DNA of 58,906 nucleotides from Kiloniellaceae bacterium (lineage in GTDB: Bacteria; Pseudomonadota; Alphaproteobacteria; Kiloniellales; J153): contig JAJFGL010000069.1 of the NCBI GenBank assembly GCA_021776135.1, positions 1 through 58,906 of the forward strand, written 5' to 3'. Positions 15,376 to 27,836 of the stretch are shown piece after piece. The notes beneath the pieces were generated by a model. It worked only from the letters and a program-made list of their open reading frames with translations, did not search any database and was not told the origin of the DNA. The position numbers and the translations under genes are program-made. How positions within the stretch are numbered: the stretch's first letter is position 1; every line of letters begins with the position of its first letter.

Positions 15376-17085
15376 CTAGGATAGCCAGACCTCGTTAAAC
15401 TGATGATAAAGGGTCGGATGAAGCCGGTAGCCTCTTACCTTGGCGCCGGTGGCGGAAAAAACCGCGCGCCACAAGGGCTGAAGTATCACGGCGTCGTCTT
15501 GCAGCATGGCTTGTACTCTTGCCATCTTTTTGCGCCGCTCATTGACGTCGAGGGTCGCGCTCGCCTCGTCCAGCGCAAGGTCGAAGGCCGGATTGCTGTA
15601 ATGGCTCTCATTCCACGGCACGCCCGTGCGGTAAGCGAGATTGAGAACCATGACGCCGAGCGGGCGATGGGTCCATGACGTGAAGCCGAAGGGCGTCTTA
15701 TTCCAGATCTCCGCGTAGCGCGCGCTGGACACGACCTTCACCGTCAAGTCGATACCGGCGGGCCTGCACTGTTCCTTGAAGGCGCGCATGGCATCCTGCT
15801 CCCAATCGCCGGTGGTATTGCCAAGCTCGATGGTGATTTTTATGCCGTTTCGATAGCCGGCCTCGAACAACAACCTCTTGGCCTTGCCATGATCCGGTTT
15901 TTGCGGTTCCAGGCGCGCGTATTCCGGGTGGATCGGGGAGACATGGTGATCCTCGCCCGGCGCCCCCTTGCCCCCATAGGCAAGCTTGAGCAGTTCCCGG
16001 TGGTCCATACAGGCCTGGAGGGCCTGGCGGACACGCTTATCGGTAAACGGCGCCTTATCCACCTGCATCCGGGCGACGCCGGTTTGCGCCGTGGTCGCCG
16101 TGTGCACCTCGACGCCGGAAAGTTTCTCCGCCATCTCGAGCTGATTGACGCTGAACTCGTAAATGCCATCGACTTGTCCGGCGGCCAGGGCCGCCAGCCA
16201 GGCCGCTTGGTCACCGCCCAGGTCGCTATAAACGATCTCGTCAAGAAACGGCCGCGGGCCCCAGTAACCGTCGCGGCGGCGCAGCACCGCCTTGTCGCGC
16301 AAACGGTACTCGGCCAGGGCGAAGGCGCCCGTGCCGACCGGATTCTTGGATAGATCGCCGCCTTCCTCCTCGAAGCGGCGGTGAACGATGGCGGCCGGGT
16401 AGTTGTAGAGGTTCTCGGGCATGGACAGAACGGGGGTGTTCAGATTCAAGCGGACCGTATGCGCGTCGATTTTTTCGGCCGCCCCCTCGGTCATGCGGGT
16501 GGCCATGACCGGGTTGCCTTGATCGTCCTTCTTGCCGGTCTTGGTTTCCTCGGTCATGGCGGAAAAGAGACCGATATTCGACGACCCGGTTTTCGGGTTG
16601 AGCCAGCGCTTGAAATTGAAAATCACGTCGTCGGCGCCGAAATCGTCGCCGTTGGACCATTTCACCCCCCGGCGCAGCTTGAAGGTCCAGGTTTTCAGAT
16701 CGTCGGACGCCTCCCAGCCTTCGGCCAAGTAGGGACGGGTGATGTTATCGGGTCCGGTGTGGCAGAGGTATTCGACCAGATGGCGCGTGACATTGGACTT
16801 TGGGGTCCAGTCGAAACGGGCCGGGTCGTCCGCCTCCTGCACCTCCATGGCCCAGCGCAAGCTGCCGCCCCGCTTCGGCGTTTCGGCGGCGCGCGCCGGC
16901 TTTACCGCCGGGCCGCCCAAAATTTTGCCGGCCATGCCGTAGGCCGCGGCTGCCGACACGCCAAGCAAGGTGACGGTGCGCAGGAATTCCCGCCGGTCCA
17001 GGCCGCCCTTGCGCAGCTGTTCGCAAAGCTCCGGCACGCAGGCATGAACCCGGCGGCCGTTATGGTCCTCGATCTTTTTCTTCAT
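15376..17085 (-). CDS. Tat-exported family 5 ABC transporter substrate-binding protein
   Basis: A 569-residue periplasmic binding protein of the oligopeptide/dipeptide (DppA/OppA, SBP family 5) type. A twin-arginine signal, LDRREFLRTVTLLGVS, starts at about residue 29, after an unusual polar extension containing two cysteines. The family core follows: WTFKLRRGVKWSNGDDFGADDVIFNFKRW-like sequence, then PVGTGAFALAEYR, and DLALDEASATLD near the end. Length is slightly above average because of the extension. No permease or ATPase genes adjoin it, so it either pairs with a distant transporter or is an orphan receptor. The following small exported protein lies 3 bp downstream. Confidence 0.9.
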   Translation of the reverse strand: MKKKIEDHNGRRVHACVPELCEQLRKGGLDRREFLRTVTLLGVSAAAAYGMAGKILGGPAVKPARAAETPKRGGSLRWAMEVQEADDPARFDWTPKSNVTRHLVEYLCHTGPDNITRPYLAEGWEASDDLKTWTFKLRRGVKWSNGDDFGADDVIFNFKRWLNPKTGSSNIGLFSAMTEETKTGKKDDQGNPVMATRMTEGAAEKIDAHTVRLNLNTPVLSMPENLYNYPAAIVHRRFEEEGGDLSKNPVGTGAFALAEYRLRDKAVLRRRDGYWGPRPFLDEIVYSDLGGDQAAWLAALAAGQVDGIYEFSVNQLEMAEKLSGVEVHTATTAQTGVARMQVDKAPFTDKRVRQALQACMDHRELLKLAYGGKGAPGEDHHVSPIHPEYARLEPQKPDHGKAKRLLFEAGYRNGIKITIELGNTTGDWEQDAMRAFKEQCRPAGIDLTVKVVSSARYAEIWNKTPFGFTSWTHRPLGVMVLNLAYRTGVPWNESHYSNPAFDLALDEASATLDVNERRKKMARVQAMLQDDAVILQPLWRAVFSATGAKVRGYRLHPTLYHQFNEVWLS

Positions 17086-17180
17086 GGGTCATCGCGGTTT
17101 CTAATGGGTTTGGGTCCAAGCACGCCCCTTGGTCATAGCAACCCCTAGACGCGCCGTCCTAGTACTCTTTTTGCGGGCGC

Positions 17181-18401
17181 TCAGCTTTGCGTCGTCTCGA
17201 TCACGACCTCGCCGGTCAGGCTCCGGTGAACCGGGCATTTGTCGGCAATCTCAAGCAGCTTGGCGCGTTGTTCCCCGGACAAGTCTCCCTCCAGGGTCAG
17301 CTTTCGGGTAATCCGGTCGAGCTTACCTGCCACGGTCTCGCAATCGGCACAGTCTTGCGCGTGAATTTTGTCGTGTTTAAGGCGCAGCGAAACCCGTTCC
17401 AGGGGCCAGCCCTTGCGCGCCGCGTACAGGCGCAGAGTCATGGCGGTGCAGGCCCCCAGGCCCGCCAGCAGTAAGTCGTAGGGGCCCGGCCCGGTATCGT
17501 CGCCGCCCACGTCGAGAGGCTCATCGGCGCGCAAGGCATGGGGCCCGGCGGCAATCTCCTGCATGAATTTCCCTTCGCCGGTTTCCCGGACCAACACGGC
17601 GCCGGCTTCACCCTTCAAGGGCGTTGCTTGCGGCATGACCCCCAGGTAGCGCCCGGCCCAGGCCGCCAGCACTTCGGCGGTATAGATCGCATCGGCCTTA
17701 CGGCTAAGCAGATGGTCGGCGTCGTCCAGGGAAACGAAACTCTTCGGGTGTTTGGCGGCGGCGAAAATATGGCCCGCGTTCTCGATCCCGACGGTTTGGT
17801 CTTGCGGCGCGTGAAAGACGATCAGCGCCTTGCGCAATTCGGCGACCGCGTGCGCCAGCTTCTGTTCCGCAATGTCGTCGAGGAATTGTTTCTTGATGGT
17901 GAAGGGGCGCCCGGCGAGCAGGACTTCCGCCTCGCCCTTGGCTTCGATCTCGGCGCGCGAGGACTGAAAGGTGTGCGCGACATGGGCGGGATCGGCGGGC
18001 GCGCCGATGGTCGCCACGGCAACCGCCTCCGGCACCCGCGCCGCGGCCGCCAGGACGGCGGCGCCGCCGAGGCTGTGGCCGATTAGGATTTTCGGGGCTT
18101 CGTGGGCTTCGCGCAGAAAGTCGGCGGCCTTGACCAGGTCCGCCACATTCGATGAGAAGTTGGTGTTCGCGAACTCGCCATCGCTGTGGCCCAGGCCGGT
18201 GAAATCGAAGCGCAGGACCGCGATCCCCGCTTCCGCCAAGGCTTGGGCAATTCGGGCGGCGGCGAATATATCCTTGGTGCAGGTAAAGCAGTGGGCGAAC
18301 AAGGCGAAGGCGCGGGGCCTTCCCGCCGGCAAGTCCAAACGCGCCGCCAGAATCCCGCCATCGGCGCCTGGAAAACTCAATTTCTCGCTACGAACCGCCA
18401 T
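17181..18401 (-). CDS. alpha/beta hydrolase fused to an OsmC/Ohr domain
   Basis: A 406-residue two-domain protein. Residues of about 1-260 are an alpha/beta hydrolase: HCFTCTKD near the oxyanion region, the nucleophile elbow GHSLGG at about residue 107, and a late DDADHLLSRKAD supplying Asp/His. Residues of about 265-406 are an OsmC-like domain. It carries the conserved thiols seen in DCADCETVAGK and in DKCPVHRSL, used in peroxide reduction by the OsmC superfamily. This fusion is known in many proteobacteria, though its substrate is not established. It is a single gene, diverging from the AraC remnant and the NUDIX gene. Confidence 0.9.
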   Translation of the reverse strand: MAVRSEKLSFPGADGGILAARLDLPAGRPRAFALFAHCFTCTKDIFAAARIAQALAEAGIAVLRFDFTGLGHSDGEFANTNFSSNVADLVKAADFLREAHEAPKILIGHSLGGAAVLAAAARVPEAVAVATIGAPADPAHVAHTFQSSRAEIEAKGEAEVLLAGRPFTIKKQFLDDIAEQKLAHAVAELRKALIVFHAPQDQTVGIENAGHIFAAAKHPKSFVSLDDADHLLSRKADAIYTAEVLAAWAGRYLGVMPQATPLKGEAGAVLVRETGEGKFMQEIAAGPHALRADEPLDVGGDDTGPGPYDLLLAGLGACTAMTLRLYAARKGWPLERVSLRLKHDKIHAQDCADCETVAGKLDRITRKLTLEGDLSGEQRAKLLEIADKCPVHRSLTGEVVIETTQS

Positions 18402-18458
18402 GACGACCCCCTAAGTTCATAAGAGGCCCATGGCAGCACGGCGGCGCCCGGGCGGCAA

Positions 18459-18596
18459 GCAAGACCGCGCGGACAAGCCTTGCCTTTGGAGCGGGTGGCG
18501 CGGCAGGTTGGCTAGGAGTCGGTCATCTCCTTCATCCGCGCCTTCAAGCGGGAATTCAAGGTCAGCCCCGGCCAGTACCGGCGCGGCATGCTCTAA
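18459..18596 (+). pseudogene. remnant of an AraC-family transcriptional regulator (C-terminal end)
   Basis: One frame reads LPLERVARQVG, a TAG stop at 18513-18515, then ESVISFIRAFKREFKVSPGQ and ending YRRGML before TAA. This is the second helix-turn-helix of AraC/XylS proteins, where an aromatic residue normally stands at the stop position. No matching upstream domain exists: the preceding sequence is out of frame and runs into the diverging hydrolase gene. It is therefore a decayed 3' end of a regulator gene, sitting directly upstream of the NUDIX gene. Confidence 0.75.
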
Positions 18597-18607
18597 GGAA
18601 ACAATCC

Positions 18608-19216
18608 ATGGCAAAGCAGGATCCGCGCGTCGAGGTGCGCGAAAAAACCGTGTCCTTTCGCGGTTACTTTCAGGTCGATCTTTATAACCTTCGGCACCGG
18701 CGCTTCGATGGCGCCTGGAGCGAGGTCATGTCCCGGGAGGTCTTCGAGCGCGGCCATGCCGCCGCCGTCCTGCCCTACGATCCGATGCGCGATGCCGTGG
18801 TCTTGATCGAGCAGTTCCGGGTCGGCGCCCTGGCCGCCGGCATGGAGCCCTGGCTGACCGAGATCGTCGCGGGCATCATCGAACCCGGCGAAGACCCGGC
18901 GGACGTGGTGCGCCGCGAGGCGGTCGAGGAAGCGGGCTGCGAAATACAAAACCTGGAATCCATCGGCAAGATACTCATGAGCCCCGGCGGTTGCTCCGAA
19001 ACCTTGACGCTATACTGCGGGCGCGTTGACGCCGGCGATGTGGGCGGGCTCCACGGCCTGGCCCATGAACACGAAGATATCCGCGCCTTCGCCATAGCCG
19101 CCGAAGAGGCTTTGGCCAAGCTGGCGGCCGGCGATTACGTCAACGCCGCCCTGGTCATGGCGCTCCAATGGCTGGCTCTGAACCGGGAGACCCTGCGAAG
19201 GAAATGGCGGGAATAG
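18608..19216 (+). CDS. nudF: NUDIX hydrolase, ADP-ribose pyrophosphatase type
   Basis: A 202-residue NUDIX protein. The box GX5EX7REUXEEXGU is complete as GIIEPGEDPADVVRREAVEEAGC (seen in two parts, GIIEPGE and REAVEEAGC). Downstream, SPGGCSETLTLYCGRVD matches the NudF/TrgB branch that splits ADP-ribose into AMP and ribose-5-phosphate. Length is normal. The start ATG follows CTAAGGAAACAATCC, a good ribosome-binding site. The last 103 bp of coding sequence (19106-19208) occur again at 22341-22443, downstream of a three-gene cassette, so the gene end has served as an insertion or recombination point. Confidence 0.9.
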   Translation: MAKQDPRVEVREKTVSFRGYFQVDLYNLRHRRFDGAWSEVMSREVFERGHAAAVLPYDPMRDAVVLIEQFRVGALAAGMEPWLTEIVAGIIEPGEDPADVVRREAVEEAGCEIQNLESIGKILMSPGGCSETLTLYCGRVDAGDVGGLHGLAHEHEDIRAFAIAAEEALAKLAAGDYVNAALVMALQWLALNRETLRRKWRE

Positions 19217-19342
19217 CTACGCTTCCGATGCATGATCTATTATGTTAACGTATTCGACGGATGGCTGGTGCCATCTGGAAAATATCGGCTGAAACATGCC
19301 GGAACCAGGGCGCAAAATGCCCGGAAAAACAGAGGGAAAATC

Positions 19343-20590
19343 ATGAAATTGCGTCTCCTGCTCTGTGCGGCCGCCTTGTTCGGCTATGTCGGACCCGCCG
19401 CAGCCGATACGACCGATACGAAGTGGCAGAATCAGATCGTCATCGCCAAGCAGGGCGGCCATTGCGTCGACGATCCGCAATGCTTCAACCGCTATCACCC
19501 GGACATCCCCACGGTCGCGCGCGCCAAGCCCGGCGACATGATCGTGTTCCATACGCGCGACGCGCTGGATTCCGACCTGAGCTTCGATTCCGTTGCCGAC
19601 GACGTGACCGCCGTCGATCTCAATCTCGTGCATCCCATGACCGGGCCGGTCCATATCGAGGGGGCCAAGCGCGGCGACGTGCTCGCGATCACGCTGGTCG
19701 ATATCGCGCCGGATGAATACGGCTACACCGTCATCGTTCCCGGCTTCGGCTTCCTGCGCGATATCTACACCGAGCCTTACCTGGTCAATTGGCGGCTGAC
19801 GCGCACCCACGCCGAATCCGATCAGATGCCGGGCATCAAGGTGCCCTACGAGGCCTTCATGGGTTCGGTCGGGGTCCTGCCCGGCCTGCCTGAGGTCGAC
19901 ACCTGGCTGGCGCGCGAGAACGCGCTCAGCGCGGCCGGCGGCATCGCCCTGCCGCCGCAGCCGGTCGGCGCGCAACCGAGCGCGGTTTGCGGACCGCAAG
20001 GGAGCGCCAAGGACAAGTGCCTGCGCACCATCCCGCCGCGCGAGAACGGCGGCAACATGGACGTGCAGCAAATGCAGGTGGGGACGACCCTTCTCCTGCC
20101 CTGCTTCGTCGACGGCTGCAGCCTGTTCGTCGGCGACGTGCATTACGCGCAGGGCGACGGCGAGGTTTCCGGGACCGCGATCGAGACGGGCGCCGTGGTC
20201 ACGGTGACGACGGAAATCCGCAAGGGCCAGGGGGCCTTCATCAAGGGCCCCGAGGTCGAAGGCGGATCCCAGATCAAGAATATGGAACCGTCGAAGTTCT
20301 ATCAGACCATCGGCCTGCCCTTGAAGACGGCGGGCGAGGTGCCGGCTCCGCATACCTACCTGGAGAGCGAGAAGATCAAGAACCTGAGCAACCTGTCCGA
20401 GGATCTGACTCTGGCCGCGCGGGACGCCCTGATCAAGATGATCGCCTACATCCAGCGCGAACACGGCCTCGACGCGGAGCAGGCCTACATCCTGGCGAGC
20501 GTCGCGGTCGATCTGCGGGTCGGGCAGGTGGTCGATGTGCCGAACTATGTCGTGACCGCGGTGCTGAACGAGGACGTTTTCGCGGAGTGA
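19343..20590 (+). CDS. exported acetamidase/formamidase family protein
   Basis: A 415-residue protein of the acetamidase/formamidase (FmdA/AmdA) family, metal-dependent hydrolases that release ammonia from short amides. An unusual feature is a clear Sec signal peptide (MKLRLLLCAAALFGYVGPAA), so it should work in the periplasm. Family-like segments include IPPRENGGNMDVQQMQVGTT, GCSLFVGDVHYAQGDGEV and the C-terminal AYILASVAVDLRVGQVVD. I used the ATG at 19343, which has AGAGGG eight bases upstream and starts the signal peptide. The longer frame from 19232 is unsupported. The next gene starts at a GTG overlapping its stop codon. It belongs to the cassette framed by the NUDIX 3'-end repeat. Confidence 0.88.
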   Translation: MKLRLLLCAAALFGYVGPAAADTTDTKWQNQIVIAKQGGHCVDDPQCFNRYHPDIPTVARAKPGDMIVFHTRDALDSDLSFDSVADDVTAVDLNLVHPMTGPVHIEGAKRGDVLAITLVDIAPDEYGYTVIVPGFGFLRDIYTEPYLVNWRLTRTHAESDQMPGIKVPYEAFMGSVGVLPGLPEVDTWLARENALSAAGGIALPPQPVGAQPSAVCGPQGSAKDKCLRTIPPRENGGNMDVQQMQVGTTLLLPCFVDGCSLFVGDVHYAQGDGEVSGTAIETGAVVTVTTEIRKGQGAFIKGPEVEGGSQIKNMEPSKFYQTIGLPLKTAGEVPAPHTYLESEKIKNLSNLSEDLTLAARDALIKMIAYIQREHGLDAEQAYILASVAVDLRVGQVVDVPNYVVTAVLNEDVFAE

Positions 20591-21129
20591 ACCGGCGCCA
20601 CGCCCTGCGGCTGTCCGCCGGGGCGGCCGCGGGGCTGCTGCTGAGCGGCCATACCCCCTATGGGCAGTGGGTCGTCTATCGCAAGAAGCATCTCCTGATC
20701 GGCTGCCACAAGACCGATCCCGTGACCTACGACCTGGCCAAGCAGGTGGTGGCGCTGCTCGCCGAGCACCTGCCGGCGGCCAAATCGCGGGCCGCCCGCG
20801 CCCCGGACGCCGAGCGGCTGGCCAGCCTTCTCGGAACCGCGCAGATGGCGGTCGCGATCCTGAACGCCCCGGACGCCGCCACCATGATGCGGGGGAGCGG
20901 GCGCTTCGCGGCCTACGGCGCCATCGAGCTTCGGGTCCTGACGCCGGTCGATGACCGGCTTCTAGTCGCCCGAGCGGACTTTCCCGCGCGCCATGCTTGG
21001 CTGGTCACCGGTGTCCTGGCCGGAACCGGCTTGGCGCCAAAGCCGCGACCCACGGGCGATTTCGGCATCCCCTGGCATCCTGGCAGCCGCGCGTTCCTGG
21101 AAGGACGGCCTGAACCGGGCGATGATTAA
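20587..21129 (+). CDS. short exported protein, possible TAXI/binding-protein-like
   Basis: About 180 residues starting at GTG 20587, coupled to the amidase stop by a GTGA overlap. The N-terminus NRRHALRLSAGAAAGLLLSG is a twin-arginine-like export signal. The mature sequence (HLLIGCHKTDPVTYDLAKQV, later AIELRVLTPVDDRLLVARAD) looks like part of a periplasmic binding fold similar to TAXI or phosphonate-type receptors, but it is shorter than those. I am not sure of the family. Its place between an exported amidase and a HupE/UreJ-like membrane protein suggests a helper in the same uptake or breakdown pathway. Confidence 0.6.
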   Translation: MNRRHALRLSAGAAAGLLLSGHTPYGQWVVYRKKHLLIGCHKTDPVTYDLAKQVVALLAEHLPAAKSRAARAPDAERLASLLGTAQMAVAILNAPDAATMMRGSGRFAAYGAIELRVLTPVDDRLLVARADFPARHAWLVTGVLAGTGLAPKPRPTGDFGIPWHPGSRAFLEGRPEPGDD

Positions 21130-22198
21130 GCGCCTGCTGTGGGCGCTGCCGGTGCTGTTCGTCCTCGGCGCGCCGGCGCGGGGCCACGATCCGGGCATGA
21201 CCGTCGCGACCGTGATCGCCGAGGAACGCGAAACCCTGGTCGAGATCTCGATCAAGGGCAGCGATCTGGCGCGGGCCGCCGGCGTCGACCTGCTCGATTC
21301 CGAAGGCCAAGTCGATCCCGAGCGGCTCGCCGGCGCGGCGGCGGCGGTCCGGACCCACTTGCGCGCCACCACGGCCCTTAAAGCGGACTCGGCCGCCTGT
21401 CCCTTTGAGATCGTGGAACTGGCGGCGGTCGAGGACGGCGTCCTCGCGGTCCTCAAGGCGCCTTGCGGCACCGCCAACGCCGGCCTGTCGTACCGCAGCA
21501 CCCTCCTGCATGAGATCAATCCGGCGACCATCCAGCACGCCGTGCTGCTCAAAGGCGACGACGCCATCCCCTCCGCGCTCACCCAGGAGCGGAATAGCCT
21601 GGAAATTCAGGCTCCGCTTGCCTTGAGCGAGGCCGCCGCCCGCTATCTCGTATCCGGCGCCGAACACATCTTCGCCGGCTACGATCACGTCGCCTTCCTG
21701 CTCGCCCTGCTACTCTGGGCGCGGGGCGTCTGGGCCGTGGTCAAGGTGGTCACCGCCTTCACCCTATCCCACTCGGTCGCGCTCTCGCTGGCGGCGCTCG
21801 ATCTGGTCAGCCTGCCCGGCGGCCTGGTCGAGCCGCTGATCGCCGCGAGCGTCGTCGCGGTCGCCGTGGAGAACTTCTTCAACCGGCGGATCGAGGGGCG
21901 TTGGCGGGTCGCCTTCATCCTCGGCTTCATCCATGGCTTCGGGTTCGCCGGCGCGCTTCGTGACATCGGGCTGCCGCAGGACGCGCTCATCATCGCCCTC
22001 GCCTTTTTCAACATCGGGGTCGAGATCGGGCAGGTTGCTATCGTTGCTATCGTCGTGCCGCTGCTTCTGGGCATCGACCGCCTGAGCGCGCGCTCACCCG
22101 CTGCACCGGCGCGCAGGCCGGCTCTGGTCTACGGCGTCTCCGCGGTAATCTCCGGGCTCGGCGGCTACTGGTTCATCGAACGGACGCTACTCGCGTAA
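21122..22198 (+). CDS. HupE/UreJ-family membrane protein with a periplasmic N-domain
   Basis: 358 residues. A signal peptide (RLLWALPVLFVLGAPARG) leads to an extracytoplasmic domain of about 165 residues with a paired-cysteine feature (SAACPFEI, KAPCGTANA). A bundle of six or more membrane helices follows, containing the HupE/UreJ signature GAEHIFAGYDHVAFLLALLL and later HGFGFAGALRDIGLP. HupE and UreJ are linked to nickel or cobalt uptake for hydrogenase and urease; this longer subfamily is common but uncharacterised. It overlaps the preceding gene by 8 bp, so the three genes form one operon. Metal supply to the metal-dependent amidase is a plausible inference. Confidence 0.8.
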   Translation: MIKRLLWALPVLFVLGAPARGHDPGMTVATVIAEERETLVEISIKGSDLARAAGVDLLDSEGQVDPERLAGAAAAVRTHLRATTALKADSAACPFEIVELAAVEDGVLAVLKAPCGTANAGLSYRSTLLHEINPATIQHAVLLKGDDAIPSALTQERNSLEIQAPLALSEAAARYLVSGAEHIFAGYDHVAFLLALLLWARGVWAVVKVVTAFTLSHSVALSLAALDLVSLPGGLVEPLIAASVVAVAVENFFNRRIEGRWRVAFILGFIHGFGFAGALRDIGLPQDALIIALAFFNIGVEIGQVAIVAIVVPLLLGIDRLSARSPAAPARRPALVYGVSAVISGLGGYWFIERTLLA

Positions 22199-22278
22199 AG
22201 CCACGCTGATGCGGCCGTTATATCCGGCGTCTCCTGGTATTGGTGCCCAGGTCAACAAATTCCGGGCATGTCTATAAA

Positions 22279-22338
22279 CGGACCTTAGCCAAACTGACCC
22301 ACTATCGAAATTTTAGCCAGCTTGAACCGGACCCGCCG
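22279..22338. repeat. 60-bp repeat R, copy 1 (likely IS21-like end remnant)
   Basis: This 60-bp stretch, containing GACCCACTATCGAAATTTTA, is 59/60 identical to 25101-25160 in the same orientation. The two copies bracket the NUDIX tail copy, the Sco1/cytochrome genes and a MITE-like element. A TGACCC motif here, and GGGTCA / TGACCC at 22479-22484 and 22505-22510, recall the reiterated end sequences of IS21-family elements. The element name is inferred. No transposase is left. Confidence 0.75.
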
Positions 22339-22340
22339 GC

Positions 22341-22443
22341 GAGGCTTTGGCCAAGCTGGCGGCCGGCGATTACGTCAATGCCGCCCTGGTCATGGCGCTC
22401 CAATGGCTGGCTCTGAACCGGGAGACCCTGCGAAGGAAGTGGC
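22341..22443 (+). pseudogene. 3'-end fragment of the NUDIX gene
   Basis: It repeats the last 34 codons of the NUDIX hydrolase ending at 19216, with two mismatches, but lacks the start, the NUDIX box and the stop. It begins two bases after repeat R copy 1. It marks one boundary of the inserted amidase cassette. The region 22444-22523 beyond it holds only GGGTCA/TGACCC repeats. Confidence 0.8.
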
Positions 22444-22523
22444 CGACCTAAGGAACATTGTACCGAGACTTTGGCAGCGGGTCAGTTTGAAGAAGGCCCG
22501 CTTTTGACCCATTTCGGAAGAAC

Positions 22524-23168
22524 TTAATGATAGTCATTAGTCAGCGCGTTGACATGAACAATTAGGTTAGTCGGATTGAATTTCAGCCCGTGATAGCGGG
22601 CGCGCAGATTGCCGCTCTTGTCTATCAAGTGAGTGACAAGACCATGCATTTGGTATCCGTCTTCCACGGGCGTGAACTTCAACCCATATTTCTCCGCGAG
22701 TTCACGAGTAGCAGAGAGTTCTTCCGGCCCACTCGTCAACATGGTCCAGTTGATCGGATCAAGTCCATGCTTGGGCCCATAATCCCGCATTAGCTCCGGC
22801 GTGTCGTGTTCTGGATCAGTCGTGATCGTGATGAATTGAACCAACTCACGCATCGGAGTTCGGTTTACCTGTTTTTGGATCGAAGCAAGCGCCCCGCTGT
22901 GGAGCGGACAAACATCCGGGCATCTTGCGTAGACAAACCATAGGATTACCACCTTACCCCGAAGATCAGCCAAGCTCACGGGTTCGCCCTTCCCACTCGT
23001 CAACGTGAAGCTTGGCGCTGGACGGTTCACGATCTGCGCATACTTTTCTCTGCCTTTTAGATTCTCCTCAAGGTCCTCCAGAGAATGAGCAAGCGTCGGC
23101 AGTGTGTGCCCGACCAGGACCACGAGCCCAATAAGGAAGTGGCACGATAGGTGGCTCAATCTCGACAT
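22524..23168 (-). CDS. SCO1/SenC family copper-binding protein
   Basis: A 214-residue thioredoxin-fold protein of the Sco family. Sco proteins carry copper to the CuA site of cytochrome oxidase or act as periplasmic thiol-disulphide oxidoreductases. It has an N-terminal signal/anchor (FLIGLVVLVGHTLPTLA). The metal-binding motif CPDVC lies in WFVYARCPDVCPLHSG, and the third ligand is probably the His in MHGLVTHLIDKSG. The start at 23168 has GGAGG upstream; a start five codons earlier is possible. It is the last gene of a minus-strand group with two cytochromes c and a Cys-rich protein, so a role in copper or haem-protein maturation is likely. Base composition is lower in GC than in neighbouring core genes. 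Confidence 0.88.
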   Translation of the reverse strand: MSRLSHLSCHFLIGLVVLVGHTLPTLAHSLEDLEENLKGREKYAQIVNRPAPSFTLTSGKGEPVSLADLRGKVVILWFVYARCPDVCPLHSGALASIQKQVNRTPMRELVQFITITTDPEHDTPELMRDYGPKHGLDPINWTMLTSGPEELSATRELAEKYGLKFTPVEDGYQMHGLVTHLIDKSGNLRARYHGLKFNPTNLIVHVNALTNDYH

Positions 23169-23210
23169 GGTTTTTCCTCCCATGAACTCACGGCACTTGA
23201 TATCTGCGGG

Positions 23211-23690
23211 TCATTGTTTTTCGGCTTGCTTCCTATACGTTTGGTCGATCCGCTCCTGATAGGCTCGTGATTTCTCCGACCATGTGCTCTTAATGAAGGA
23301 CAGAACCGCCCAGATTTCCTCATCCACAAGAACACCGTCGAATGACGGCATGTCGCTCTCGTAGCCTTCAGGAGCGAGCGGCGGCTTCACCCCGCCCTTG
23401 GTAATGCGGAATAATTGTTCATCGGCGTGATGCCATGTATGTCCGGTGTCATCGTGAGGGGGTGCGGGAAGTCTCCCGTCCGGTTTACGTTCGCGCCATT
23501 TCGGTTGACCCTGAAAACTTTTACCGTGGCAGGCTCCACAGTGCTCAGCGTAGACGACCCTACCCCGCGCGACGTGATCAGCGTTTTCGAAATCGGCTCG
23601 ATCTAGCACCGATTCGCCGCGCGAGAGTGCCAGCGCACCTAATGCGAGCACTACAAGCCCACCGGCCACCAACAGAACGAACAGCTTCAT
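23211..23690 (-). CDS. membrane-anchored monohaem cytochrome c
   Basis: 159 residues: an uncleaved or cleaved hydrophobic N-terminus (KLFVLLVAGGLVVLALGALA), then a class I cytochrome c domain. The haem motif CGACH lies in VYAEHCGACHGKSFQGQP, and the distal Met is probably in ESDMPSFDGVL. The C-terminal tail is charged (YQERIDQTYRKQAEKQ). I placed the start at 23690, where its ATG overlaps the stop of the upstream cytochrome gene by 4 bp, so the two are translationally coupled. Electron donor or acceptor unknown. Confidence 0.85.
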   Translation of the reverse strand: MKLFVLLVAGGLVVLALGALALSRGESVLDRADFENADHVARGRVVYAEHCGACHGKSFQGQPKWRERKPDGRLPAPPHDDTGHTWHHADEQLFRITKGGVKPPLAPEGYESDMPSFDGVLVDEEIWAVLSFIKSTWSEKSRAYQERIDQTYRKQAEKQ

Positions 23691-24403
23691 TGTGGACACT
23701 CTGACTTGATGAAGGCGCTGATTTCGGTCGGAGCGGCAAAGATAATGAAGACGCGGTCGCCCCTCATACTGGCCGGAATTATCACCGGATGACCTGCCAC
23801 AGGGCCGTCTTCGCTGCCATCGGTCTTGAAACGGAGGTTGAACTCCCAAAATTCGTATGCTTCCTCCGTTTGAACCGTCACTGTGTAGGTGTCGCCACAA
23901 TGACTGATCGAGGTGATTCGGTTGTTGGCTTCAAGTGCCTTCAGATTGAGCATCCGCCCTTGGCTCATCATCCCTTCGGACATGCCTTCTGCTTGCTGGT
24001 CTGACGACGGGCCTTGTTCTTGAGAGACACTTCGTAGATAGGCTATAAGATCGTGCCTCTGGGCCTTGTCTTGAAGCCCCCGGAATGTCATGCGGTTGTT
24101 CGGAATGAAGGTTTTGGGATTTTCGAGCCATGCATCCAGAGAGTGCTCGTTCCAAATGATATCGGCTTGCTTGAATGCCTTCGAATAGCGCGTGAAGCCC
24201 TCTACGGTACCGGCCTTGCGGCCCCAAATCCCGGCAAGACTTGGGCCGGTCATATGCCGTCCAGGCGAAAGTGAATGACAGGCCACACAAGCTCGAAATA
24301 TATCCTGCCCCTTGGCGGGATCACCGTTTTCTGAGGCGAAGCCACTCGCACCCCAAAACCCAGTACAGAATACAAGAACGCCGATTGCAGCGCGAAACCA
24401 CAT
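23687..24403 (-). CDS. two-domain cytochrome c
   Basis: 238 residues with a signal peptide (FRAAIGVLVFCTGFWGASG). Residues of about 25-130 form a class I cytochrome c of the mitochondrial type: haem motif CVACH, then GPSLAGIWGRKAGTVEGF, and the distal Met in PNNRMTFRGLQ. A Gln/Ser/Met-rich linker follows. The last 85 residues (from about LEANNRITSISHCGDTYTV) are a beta-rich domain with two cysteines (SHCGD, SECPQ) that I do not recognise. It is coupled to the next cytochrome gene by ATGA overlap and lies downstream of a Cys-rich exported protein. A role in sulphur, methanol or nitrogen-oxide chemistry cannot be told apart by sequence alone. Confidence 0.85.
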   Translation of the reverse strand: MWFRAAIGVLVFCTGFWGASGFASENGDPAKGQDIFRACVACHSLSPGRHMTGPSLAGIWGRKAGTVEGFTRYSKAFKQADIIWNEHSLDAWLENPKTFIPNNRMTFRGLQDKAQRHDLIAYLRSVSQEQGPSSDQQAEGMSEGMMSQGRMLNLKALEANNRITSISHCGDTYTVTVQTEEAYEFWEFNLRFKTDGSEDGPVAGHPVIIPASMRGDRVFIIFAAPTEISAFIKSECPQ

Positions 24404-24508
24404 GATCTACCTCCAAACCTGGCGTGTGATGTGAAATAGACGCTGAGGAGGGTCAGCCGACCGACGCCCGACCGGACTGACAGGCTCCCCCGCTATCGCG
24501 AAAGCGAT

Positions 24509-24859
24509 TTAGATGATAACAGCCGCTTTGGGAGGGTGGGGATCAGGTGGGATAACCCGGCAAGCCCAACAATTGGCTCCCGTTAGTAAGGAGCTTCCGA
24601 CCGCCGGAGCCACGGTACTCACCGAGGAAACAGCTAGACCAGAATGGCTCACACAGAGCAATGAGCAAACACCTAGCATCGCCAGATCGTCACAGTCTAC
24701 GCAGCACGCGCAGCAGGGTTCCGATGCAGTGGCGGAATCACATAATGACAGCATCGAATTGTCGGACGTGGGCATGGCCGCATCCATCGCCTCCGCCATC
24801 AATGGGTTGAGGGCGACGAGCAAAACCAGAATAAGTCCATGGAGCCAACTAGCCTTCAT
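24509..24859 (-). CDS. Cys-rich exported or membrane protein of unknown function
   Basis: A protein of about 116 residues beginning MKASWLHGLILVLLVALNPL, a signal peptide or anchor. Ten cysteines follow, six of them clustered around SEPCCACCVDCDD. A WAC pair and a proline/histidine tail (PPDPHPP) close it. The pattern suggests metal (copper) binding or a disulphide-rich fold. It resembles small Cys-rich proteins found near copper genes, but no family is certain. It is first in the minus-strand group that continues with two cytochromes c and Sco1. No clear ribosome-binding site precedes this ATG, so the start is uncertain. Confidence 0.5.
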   Translation of the reverse strand: MKASWLHGLILVLLVALNPLMAEAMDAAMPTSDNSMLSLCDSATASEPCCACCVDCDDLAMLGVCSLLCVSHSGLAVSSVSTVAPAVGSSLLTGANCWACRVIPPDPHPPKAAVII

Positions 24860-24944
24860 GGAGGAAAGATCCGATAATCTACGATAAACCGCAATAGGCA
24901 AAATACCCAGACTGAATAGACTCCCGATATGTCCGAGTTTGGCT

Positions 24945-25091
24945 GAGGCTGTTGAAAAAGTCCCGAGGACCAAAATTCTTGAAACAATGATTCAAAATCT
25001 TGGATGATGTTGAATCGATATTACTTCAGGCTCAGCTTACGGGAACGATAGTTTCAAAAAATCTGACGGCTCCGACTTCTTCAACAGCCTC
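24945..25091. mobile_element. 147-bp MITE-like element with terminal inverted repeats
   Basis: GAGGCTGTTGAAAAAGTC (24945-24962) and GACTTCTTCAACAGCCTC (25074-25091) are inverted repeats matching at 17 of 18 positions. The element is flanked by the 4-bp direct repeat GGCT (24941-24944 and 25092-25095), a likely target-site duplication. The inside has no ORF. The ends resemble IS ends that begin GGCTGTTGAAAAAG, so a full-length element may move it in trans. It lies between the cytochrome block and repeat R copy 2. Confidence 0.75.
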
Positions 25092-25100
25092 GGCTATACC

Positions 25101-25160
25101 CGGACCTTAGCCAAGCTGACCCACTATCGAAATTTTAGCCAGCTTGAACCGGACCCGCCG
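25101..25160. repeat. 60-bp repeat R, copy 2
   Basis: It is 59/60 identical to 22279-22338 and in the same orientation. It starts 5 bp after the MITE-like element's flanking GGCT and ends 57 bp before cysK. Together with copy 1 it brackets about 2.8 kb containing the cytochrome c / Sco1 genes, consistent with gain through recombination between two insertion-sequence remnants. Confidence 0.8.
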
Positions 25161-25217
25161 TGGCGGTTAATCTCCCCGCTTTGGGGGCCGCGGCCCGAAG
25201 CCAGGGAAGTAACGAAC

Positions 25218-26237
25218 ATGGATATCAGGGACGGATTCGTCGGCGCCATAGGCCACACGCCCTTGATCCGCCTGCGCCGCCTGTCGGAGCAGACCGGCTG
25301 CGAGATTCTGGGCAAGGCCGAATTCCTGAATCCCGGATCTTCGGTCAAGGACCGCGCCGCCTGGGCCATAATCAAGGACGCCGAGGAACAGGGGCTCTTG
25401 CGTCCCGGCGGCGTCATTGTCGAGGGAACGGCGGGGAACACCGGCATCGGCCTGGCCTTGGTGGGGCGGGCGCGCGGCTACCGCACGGTGATCGTGATTC
25501 CCGAAACCCAGTCCCAGGAAAAGAAGGACATGCTGCGCCTCTGCGGGGCCGAGCTGCGCGAGGTGCCGGCGGTGCCCTTCAAGAACCCGGACAACTACGT
25601 CCACGTCGCCCGGCGCCTGGGCGAGGACTTGGCGAAAAGCGAGCCGAACGGCGCCATTTTCGCCAATCAGTTCGATAATGTGGCGAACCGCCGGGGCCAC
25701 TTCGAGACCACGGGCCCGGAGATTTGGGATCAGACCGGCGGCAAGCTCCATGGCTTCATCTGCGCGGTCGGGACCGGCGGCACCCTGGCCGGCACCGGCA
25801 TGGCCTTGAAGGAACGCAACAAGGACATAACCATCGGCCTGGCCGACCCGCCCGGCGCGGCGCTGTACAACTACTACAAGCACGGAGAGTTGAAATCCGA
25901 GGGCAGTTCCATCACCGAAGGCATCGGCCAGGGCCGGATCACCGCCAACCTGGAAGGGGCGCCGATCGACGAGGCCTTTCAAATCCCGGACGCGGAAGCG
26001 GTAAGCCTGGTCTTCGATGTCCTGGAACACGAGGGGCTATGTTTAGGCCCTTCCAGCGGCGTCAATCTGGCCGGTGCGGTACGCTTAGCCGAACAGCACG
26101 GCCCCGGCCACACCATCGTCACCATCCTGGCCGATTACGGCACCCGCTATCAAAGCCGCCTGTTCAATCCGGGGTTCCTGCGCGGGAAGGATTTGCCGGT
26201 GCCGGAATGGCTGGACCGTTCCGGCTTGGGAGGATGA
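25218..26237 (+). CDS. cysK: cysteine synthase family PLP enzyme
   Basis: A 339-residue fold type II PLP enzyme that makes cysteine from O-acetylserine and sulphide, or a close relative. The PLP lysine lies in NPGSSVKDRAA (about residue 44), the substrate loop is EGTAGNTGIGLAL, and the PLP-phosphate loop is AVGTGGTLAGTG. The Thr/Ala substitution in EGTAGNTG, versus the usual TSGNTG, marks a CysK subgroup seen in alphaproteobacteria. alaX follows after 1 bp and then a sulfurtransferase, so the three likely form a sulphur/amino-acid quality-control operon. The start ATG at 25218 follows GGGAAGTAACGAAC. Confidence 0.92.
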   Translation: MDIRDGFVGAIGHTPLIRLRRLSEQTGCEILGKAEFLNPGSSVKDRAAWAIIKDAEEQGLLRPGGVIVEGTAGNTGIGLALVGRARGYRTVIVIPETQSQEKKDMLRLCGAELREVPAVPFKNPDNYVHVARRLGEDLAKSEPNGAIFANQFDNVANRRGHFETTGPEIWDQTGGKLHGFICAVGTGGTLAGTGMALKERNKDITIGLADPPGAALYNYYKHGELKSEGSSITEGIGQGRITANLEGAPIDEAFQIPDAEAVSLVFDVLEHEGLCLGPSSGVNLAGAVRLAEQHGPGHTIVTILADYGTRYQSRLFNPGFLRGKDLPVPEWLDRSGLGG

Positions 26238-26238
26238 T

Positions 26239-26952
26239 ATGACGACTGAAGCGCTATTCCGCGACGATGCCTATGCCAAGACCTGCGAGGCCAGGGTGCT
26301 GAGCGCGGACGAGGCCGGTATCCGCCTCGACCGGACGGTCTTCTATCCCATGAGCGGCGGCCAGGCGGGCGATACCGGAACCCTGCGCCTGAACGGCGGC
26401 GGCGAAATCGCCATCGCCGATACCCGCAAGGGCCAAGCGCCCGGCGAGATTTCGCACATCCCCGCAAGCGGCGAGGCCCTGCCCGCCCCCGGTACGAAGG
26501 TCACGGCGGAGATCGACTGGACGCGGCGTCACCGGCTGATGCGTATGCACACTTGTCTGCATCTTTTGTGTTCCGTGATCGAAGGCGACGTGACCGGCGG
26601 CTCCATTAGCGACGGCAAGGGCCGGCTCGACTTCAACCTGCCGGACACGGCCCTGGACAAGGAAGAAATCACGGCGGCCCTGAACCGCTTGATCGAGGCC
26701 GACCATCCTATCGGCACGCGCTGGATCACGGACGAGGAAATGGCGGCGAACCCGCAACTGGTGCGCACCATGTCGGTCAAGCCGCCCATGGACAGCGGCC
26801 GGGTGCGGCTGCTGGACATCGAGGGGGTCGATCTGCAACCTTGCGGCGGCACCCATGTGCGGCGCACCGGCGAGATCGGTCCGGTCCGGGTTGGCAAGAT
26901 CGAAAACAAGGGCCGTCAGAACCGGCGCATCAACATTCTTTTCGCCGAGTAG
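26239..26952 (+). CDS. alaX: AlaX-type alanyl-tRNA editing protein
   Basis: A 237-residue free-standing editing protein homologous to the AlaRS second domain; it hydrolyses mischarged Ser- or Gly-tRNA-Ala. The zinc-binding HxxxH is HTCLH in RLMRMHTCLHLLC, and the C-terminal pair is in CGGTHVRRTGEIG. The N-terminal GxxFYPMSGGQAGDTG-like segment (FYPMSGGQAGDTG) matches the AlaX-M domain. It sits 1 bp after cysK with GGGAGG upstream, so it is co-transcribed. Confidence 0.93.
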   Translation: MTTEALFRDDAYAKTCEARVLSADEAGIRLDRTVFYPMSGGQAGDTGTLRLNGGGEIAIADTRKGQAPGEISHIPASGEALPAPGTKVTAEIDWTRRHRLMRMHTCLHLLCSVIEGDVTGGSISDGKGRLDFNLPDTALDKEEITAALNRLIEADHPIGTRWITDEEMAANPQLVRTMSVKPPMDSGRVRLLDIEGVDLQPCGGTHVRRTGEIGPVRVGKIENKGRQNRRINILFAE

Positions 26953-26978
26953 CGGCTAAGCAATAGGACACCCCTGAC

Positions 26979-27836
26979 ATGCCGGCATCCGATCCCAGCG
27001 TTCTGGTCAGCACCGCCTGGCTCGCCGATCATATATCCGCGCCCGACGTGCGGGTGGTTGACGCGAGTTACTACCTGCCGGGCGAGGGCCTGGACCCGCG
27101 CGCCGAGTTCGAGTTGCAGCGCATACCCGGCGCCGTCTTCTTCGATATCGACGAGATCGCGGATACCTCGAGCCCCCTGCCCCACATGCTGCCGGCGCCG
27201 GAAAAATTTTCCTCGCGGGTGCGCAAGCTCGGCCTGGGCGACGGTGTGCGTATCGTGGTCTACGATCAACGCGGTATCTTCAGCGCCCCGCGCGTGTGGT
27301 GGAGCTTTCACCTGTTCGGCCATGAGGACGTGGCGGTTCTGGACGGCGGCTTGCCCAAGTGGATGGCCGAGGGGCGCAAGGTCGAGGACGGCCCCGGACG
27401 CGCCGTCGAGCGTAACTTCACGGCGCGCATGGACACCACGATGGTGCGCGACAAGGCCCAGATGCTGGCCAATCTCAAAACCGGGCGCGAACAGGTGGTG
27501 GACGCGCGCTCGCGCGGCCGCTTCGAGGGCCGCGATCCCGAACCGCGCCCGGAGTTGCGCGGCGGCCACATACCCGGCAGCTTGAACCTGCCCTTTACCG
27601 ATCTCATGGAGATGGAATCCCAGACCATGAAGCCGCGCGCGGAGATCGCCGCTTGCCTGGCCGCCGCCGGTATCGATCCCAGACGGCCTGTAACGACAAC
27701 CTGCGGCTCCGGCATTACCGCGGCCGTACTGGCGCTCGGCCTGCACATGACCGGGCACCGCGGCGTCGCCGTTTACGACGGCTCCTGGTGCGACTGGGGC
27801 GCGGGCGAAGACACCCCGGTCGAAACCGGCGCGTGA
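26979..27836 (+). CDS. sseA: 3-mercaptopyruvate / thiosulfate sulfurtransferase
   Basis: 285 residues in two rhodanese domains. The N-terminal inactive domain contains VVYDQRGIFSAPRVWWSFHL and VAVLDGGLPKW. The C-terminal active domain has the loop CGSGITA in TTCGSGITAAVLALGLHM. The CG[S/T]G[V/I]TA form is typical of 3-mercaptopyruvate sulfurtransferases rather than thiosulfate enzymes. The stop codon overlaps the GTG start of the next gene. It forms part of the cysK-alaX-sseA operon, which points to cysteine catabolism and sulphane sulphur transfer. Confidence 0.92.
   Translation: MPASDPSVLVSTAWLADHISAPDVRVVDASYYLPGEGLDPRAEFELQRIPGAVFFDIDEIADTSSPLPHMLPAPEKFSSRVRKLGLGDGVRIVVYDQRGIFSAPRVWWSFHLFGHEDVAVLDGGLPKWMAEGRKVEDGPGRAVERNFTARMDTTMVRDKAQMLANLKTGREQVVDARSRGRFEGRDPEPRPELRGGHIPGSLNLPFTDLMEMESQTMKPRAEIAACLAAAGIDPRRPVTTTCGSGITAAVLALGLHMTGHRGVAVYDGSWCDWGAGEDTPVETGA

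Follow-up and report, generated by a model that had tools for sequence, protein, structure and literature searches.

Gene content and layout of the NUDIX–cysK locus

The locus described here lies in a stretch of 58,906 nucleotides of contig JAJFGL010000069.1 (the window) from the draft genome of a Kiloniellaceae bacterium (GCA_021776135.1) and comprises two different blocks of genes set one behind the other between a NUDIX hydrolase gene and cysK (Table 1). Read from left to right, the intact NUDIX gene, whose tail we call A1, is followed by a cassette of an acetamidase/formamidase gene (below, amidase), ORF2 and a HupE/UreJ-like gene, then by a short sequence, B1, that abuts a second copy of the NUDIX tail, A2, and further by a SCO1/SenC gene, two cytochrome c genes, a MITE-like element and a sequence, B2, that is located just upstream of cysK. 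The final codons and the stop of the NUDIX gene fall at the junction with the cassette. When the seven main products of the two fillings were compared with Pfam, NCBIfam and PHROGs, none of the seven proved to be a recombinase, integrase or transposase, and we found no tRNA or tmRNA gene within the locus. In 500-base windows, the G+C content of the SCO1 block is 0.51-0.56 (22250 to 25249) and that of the remaining windows of 17000 to 26999 is 0.59-0.72.

Table 1. Features of the NUDIX–cysK locus (positions in the window)
Feature	Position	Strand	Evidence
NUDIX hydrolase gene (YffH/AdpP family), intact	18608..19216	+	Pfam PF00293; TIGR00052 above cut-off; cysK neighbour in relatives
A1, left NUDIX-tail copy	19098..19208	+	Ungapped alignment with A2
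Amidase/ORF2/HupE cassette, as bounded by the copy in genome G004	19221..22217	+	88.5% identity over 19221-22178, plus 22170-22217 (83%)
Acetamidase/formamidase (FmdA/AmdA) gene	19343..20590	+	PF03069, E=6e-88
ORF2, 180 aa	20587..21129	+	No family match
HupE/UreJ-like (HupE/UreJ_2) protein gene	21122..22198	+	PF13795, E=1.2e-43
B1, copy of the end of the NUDIX–cysK interval	22272..22338	+	64/67 identical to 25094-25160
Junction of B1 and A2, six bases common to both parents	22333..22338	+	Repeat alignments
A2, right NUDIX-tail copy	22333..22443	+	Ungapped alignment with A1
Native NUDIX last codons, stop and native intergenic start	22444..22478	+	Aligns with G001 and G003
SCO1/SenC gene, second filling	22524..23183	-	PF02630
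Cytochrome c gene	23211..23690	-	PF00034
Cytochrome c gene	23687..24403	-	PF00034
MITE-like element	24931..25105	.	32-nt inverted ends, 84% complementary; copies in G003, G004
B2, right copy, overlapping the MITE end by 12 bp	25094..25160	+	64/67 identity with B1
Putative cysK promoter TTGAAC-N18-TAATCT	25144..25173	+	Looser motif form in relatives' leaders
cysK, native right-hand neighbour	25218..26237	+	PF00291; NF007989 above cut-off

A preliminary description of this DNA had reported that 101 of 103 bp at the 3' end of the NUDIX gene recur after a three-gene operon, and we indeed confirmed both the repeat (19106-19208 vs 22341-22443, two differences) and the operon, whose amidase, ORF2 and HupE/UreJ_2 genes are all present. 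The full ungapped match is slightly longer (19098-19208 vs 22333-22443, four differences over 111 positions). A search of the bacterium's own genome (3.96 Mb in 70 contigs) with positions 22180-22540 recovered the left tail copy at E=1.2e-46 and no further copy of A or B better than E=0.0079; the other matches of this search all have E values of at least 0.0079. The tail repeat is real and not a chance similarity. The earlier picture was nonetheless incomplete, since it missed a second pair of repeats, B1 and B2 (22272-22338 vs 25094-25160; 64 of 67 positions identical, E=4.4e-24), and once this pair is counted, the feature runs on to the start of cysK at 25218. B1 opens with 12 bp from the MITE end, continues for about 36 bp and closes with the first part of the cysK leader. 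The six bases shared at the junction of B1 with A2 are CCGCCG, and the junction bases 22339-22340 fit neither parent. Repeats are limited to the unit ends A and B, with no comparable repeat in the fillings.

The NUDIX–cysK site in relatives

A search with the NUDIX protein in 116 genomes (own included) gave a match at an E value of 1e-20 or better in 78, of which the best 30 loci were kept; one is the window itself, leaving 29 relatives' loci. In 27 of these, cysK lies on the same strand 13 to 177 bp after the NUDIX gene, the empty site that the preliminary description had proposed to look for; these spacings use the NUDIX and cysK queries only, with the cysK start extrapolated from the match. 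The other two relatives have NUDIX–cysK spacings of 1,026 and 1,323 bp (loci L045:2085-3114 and L050:2061-3393), and going by these spacers, the site may tolerate inserts. No NUDIX match was obtained in G002, of the same genus, or in G005, of the same family, and identity here is no more than about 72-81% in the closest two genomes that have the locus. When G002 was compared with the own genome for core similarity, three queries gave no match or short ones only.

Farther afield, we retained 80 loci out of 150 relatives from named genomes, whose titles are mostly gammaproteobacterial. cysK lies within 200 bp in four of these loci (two, L088 and L089, coincide with G003 and G036) and at 1,745 and 5,510 bp in two more; the other 74 lack a same-strand cysK match above 55% identity in the DNA covered. 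A repeated NUDIX tail was flagged once in 109 loci, as pieces of 25-30 bp in L127 that are unlike the present repeat; the 29 relatives' loci reach at most about 1.5 kb past the NUDIX gene, so that tail copies farther away would escape. Among the genomes searched, we found none with either single-filling allele, and the array occurs in one genome only.

The sequence 3' of A2 follows the NUDIX end and intergenic start of the relatives, and the sequence 3' of A1 does not; the last codons of the intact NUDIX gene, at the cassette junction, differ from the native ones. Positions 22349-22478 joined to 25142-25217 scored 169 against the NUDIX–cysK region of G001 and 146 against that of G003, compared with 62, 93 and 74 (G001) and 71, 88 and 51 (G003) for the unjoined A1, A2 and cysK stretches, the join point having been picked by eye after inspection of the relatives' alignment. 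At the level of these alignments, the intergenic region of the relatives is restored when the cysK leader is placed directly after the A2 tail. A2 thus carries the native NUDIX end, the leader after B2 is native as well, and it is the native intergenic region that houses the SCO1 block and its MITE; the cassette occupies another, partial copy of this region. The left gene is intact and the right copy only a tail, as first described, but it is at the right tail that the native NUDIX end and the bases downstream of it are found. A homology to the native NUDIX stop region was also considered for the approximately 36 bp that separate the MITE end from the cysK leader, and was dropped after shuffles, of which 1/500 (G001), 3/500 (A2 end) and 273/500 or 0.546 (G003) reached the score.

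Upstream of cysK, we note a putative promoter whose looser form, TTGANN-N16-19-TA(A/G)NNT, precedes cysK in 15 of the 29 relatives against 0.11 expected from shuffles, a comparison in which the motif was picked after some of the sequences had been seen and the 29 include near-duplicates. The cysK motif was absent from the output of an automatic general promoter scan. The whole motif lies in B2 plus the bases following it and B1 stops inside the spacer, so that the duplicated leader is broken and cysK keeps the intact one. The site probably tolerates inserts because it is flanked by the NUDIX stop on one side and by the putative cysK promoter on the other.

The two fillings and the MITE-like element

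The amidase/ORF2/HupE cassette is present in six of the nine family genomes searched (own included). In the G004 copy, the match to 22170-22217 lies beyond about 1.1 kb of other DNA, and the 54 bp at 22218-22271, to the right of the cassette, are not accounted for by this copy. The HupE end of G004 is split by these approximately 1.1 kb, which carry what by eye is a transposase-like ORF (L076:8723-9826). The G002 cassette is 94% identical over 19329-21153, and its HupE gene is deleted down to the last codons (L077:9180-9300). The cassettes of G001, G003 and G008 are about 74% identical, with only the first half matched in G003. As far as seen by eye, the neighbours of the cassette differ among relatives (L076, L077, L080, L081 and L082, with G008's left unnamed). 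Identity in the cysK region is 80-81% for G001 and G003 and 77% for G004; G001 and G003 are thus nearer than G004 at cysK, yet have the more distant cassettes, a pattern of sequence similarity contradicting kinship that suggests horizontal movement of the cassette.

For the SCO1 block (22480-24930), six other genomes of the 385 from the class (own included) gave partial matches of 67-72% identity, and no close source or donor was found among these 385 genomes or in plasmids. Some part of 18600-25300 is matched by 76 plasmid records, none of them across 80% of it; no plasmid matched B2, and no viral contig matched a 27-base junction pattern.

Relatives of the MITE-like element were found in G003 (94% and 92%) and, in several copies, in G004, and contig 2 of the own genome matches the two MITE ends only (156905-156933 and 157045-157083). 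The right end of the element was set at about 25105 from the copies in G003 and G004 and the ends on contig 2, so that B1 and B2 each begin with 12 bp of MITE end. Since B1 starts with this end, the MITE adjoined B before the two versions of the interval parted. Inside the MITE end, B1 and B2 show an adjacent AA/CC difference, and the B1 version resembles a MITE end of G004 (L060). A 14-bp MITE-end match upstream of the G002 cassette was treated as chance; in the own genome, the 14-bp pattern occurs once exactly and once with one mismatch, and a reversed control pattern has 10 matches.

Origin of the array

The preliminary description had offered two origins for the repeated tail, insertion at a gene's 3' end and tandem duplication followed by replacement. 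The second fits the locus: because the right tail is preceded by a copy of the sequence before cysK, the topology is that of a tandem duplication, and B1 before A2 is a junction from interval end to interval start. We therefore consider it likely that a tandem duplication with different fillings accounts for the array, in which the ends of the A-to-B interval are present twice, head to tail; this judgment covers both a fusion of alleles and a duplication in place with later replacement. As in a simple tandem duplication, the junction (22333-22338) leads from a unit end to a unit start over very short homology, the six shared bases. Duplication of the unit ends alone, and not of the contents, speaks against the explanation. 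The array works like a simple tandem duplication but is not one.

Within this explanation, we tentatively and slightly favour that one tolerant site had two alleles, each with its own filling, and that unequal exchange between related chromosomes fused them. Two versions of the interval, A1-amidase cassette-B1 and A2-SCO1/cytochrome block-MITE-B2, would have been brought together by recombination at very short identity (6 bp, CCGCCG) that linked one version, at its B end, to the start of A in the version that follows. It is the AA/CC difference in the MITE end that slightly favours two alleles. Recombination between A1 and A2 is predicted to leave the SCO1 block only, and recombination between B1 and B2 the cassette only. 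We saw no homology between the edges of the cassette and their targets, so that an additional event would be needed for its arrival. A search for Ku (PF02735) was negative in this genome and positive in 1 of 14 control genomes, and Ku-dependent end joining is therefore an unlikely route. A ComEC-type gene is present, as in 10 of 14 control genomes, and is no proof of competence.

The same explanation also contains a possible, if somewhat more doubtful, course of events in which A-SCO1 block-MITE-B was duplicated in place and the cassette then replaced the filling of the first copy. Such a duplication would give the same junction topology with no second strain necessary, and the last 12 bp of the MITE kept in B1 would be expected of a trimmed first filling; weakly against it, the AA/CC difference, with B1 like L060 of G004, looks like a standing allelic difference. 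A single assembly cannot separate the fusion of two alleles from a duplication with later replacement.

We find it unlikely that a single complex template-switching event ran from the NUDIX tail to the cassette, on to 67 bp of the B end and back to the tail. It would explain three junctions at once as well as the shortness of B1, and Ku not having been found is in its favour, but cassette DNA would have to be present in the cell just then, and all differences (2/103 and 3/67) would have to be later mutations. Still less probable is an assembly artefact that chained two strain versions of the interval in one contig: the genome is a draft of 70 contigs and the fillings behave like alternative alleles, but the 6 bp common to B1 and A2 should be far under usual assembler overlaps, and contamination is estimated at 0.17. 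An island-like event, in which the cassette entered the NUDIX 3' end by site-specific insertion and restored the end of the gene, thus accounting for a direct repeat of a gene tail with the intact gene on one side, is highly improbable, given that B1 would have to belong to the element yet matches the chromosome beside cysK, so that a target site alone leaves this copy of the opposite flank unexplained, that the seven main filling proteins tested include no recombinase, that the last codons on the A1 side are non-native and that cassette copies elsewhere adjoin other genes (by eye). An IS21-type transposon carrying the NUDIX tail, suggested by an inverted repeat (22276-22303 / 22476-22503) which we take to resemble IS21-type ends, was rejected since the left arm lies within the B repeat.

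Comparison with known systems

SCC islands have orfX as their insertion site. Like the array, composite SCC islands consist of gene blocks in tandem, separated by direct repeats, and the blocks are thought to be excised by Ccr recombinases (PMC5964201); unlike SCC, the array has no recombinase among the products tested, and its repeat includes a copy of the right flank. Minimal mobile elements (PMC3082526) share with the locus a conserved gene pair with whole-gene blocks in between and no mobility genes (here, among the tested products). The flanking genes are adjacent without an insert in 27 of 29 relatives' loci. Minimal mobile elements carry different whole-gene cassettes from strain to strain, taken up through homologous recombination in the flanking genes; here, two fillings occur in one genome, and 2 of the 29 relatives have spacers of about 1.0 and 1.3 kb. 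Unlike in the minimal mobile elements of PMC3082526, two blocks stand in tandem on one chromosome here, with a duplicated gene tail and leader.

The merodiploids made by transformation in Streptococcus pneumoniae are tandem duplications of about 100 to 900 kb that form at repeats (incomplete IS copies; PMC3784515). They resemble our preferred reading, the fusion of two alleles, in that unequal exchange gives tandem interval copies differing in content (intact vs cassette-bearing); the unit here is about 3 kb, the junction 6 bp, and only the ends are alike. On short-homology duplication, PMC11111574 describes a laboratory construct in which GC-rich 9-bp microhomology borders served tandem duplication by illegitimate recombination, and states that in earlier work microhomology was not strictly necessary; that duplication was engineered and selected and had identical copies, whereas the contents of the copies differ here. 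We found no description of the present locus in the literature covered, outside of which most subscription papers fall.

Implications

Known processes suffice to explain the scar at this locus, which is ordinary genome wear and tear. A bolder reading, which we consider improbable, is that of a recombinase-free site for stackable cassettes at which alternative blocks are chained by unequal exchange, each ending in the same hinge. If this were true, the hinge would consist of the NUDIX tail preceded by part of the cysK leader, the chain could be resolved to either block by homologous recombination at A or B, and one population would keep both blocks at a reversible two-state locus. The array is in any case a well-preserved record, at a single locus, of two accessory blocks at one site without a recognisable mobility gene. 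It also illustrates that a gene-tail repeat, usually taken as the footprint of integration, can prove to be a duplication scar when the opposite flank is examined as well.
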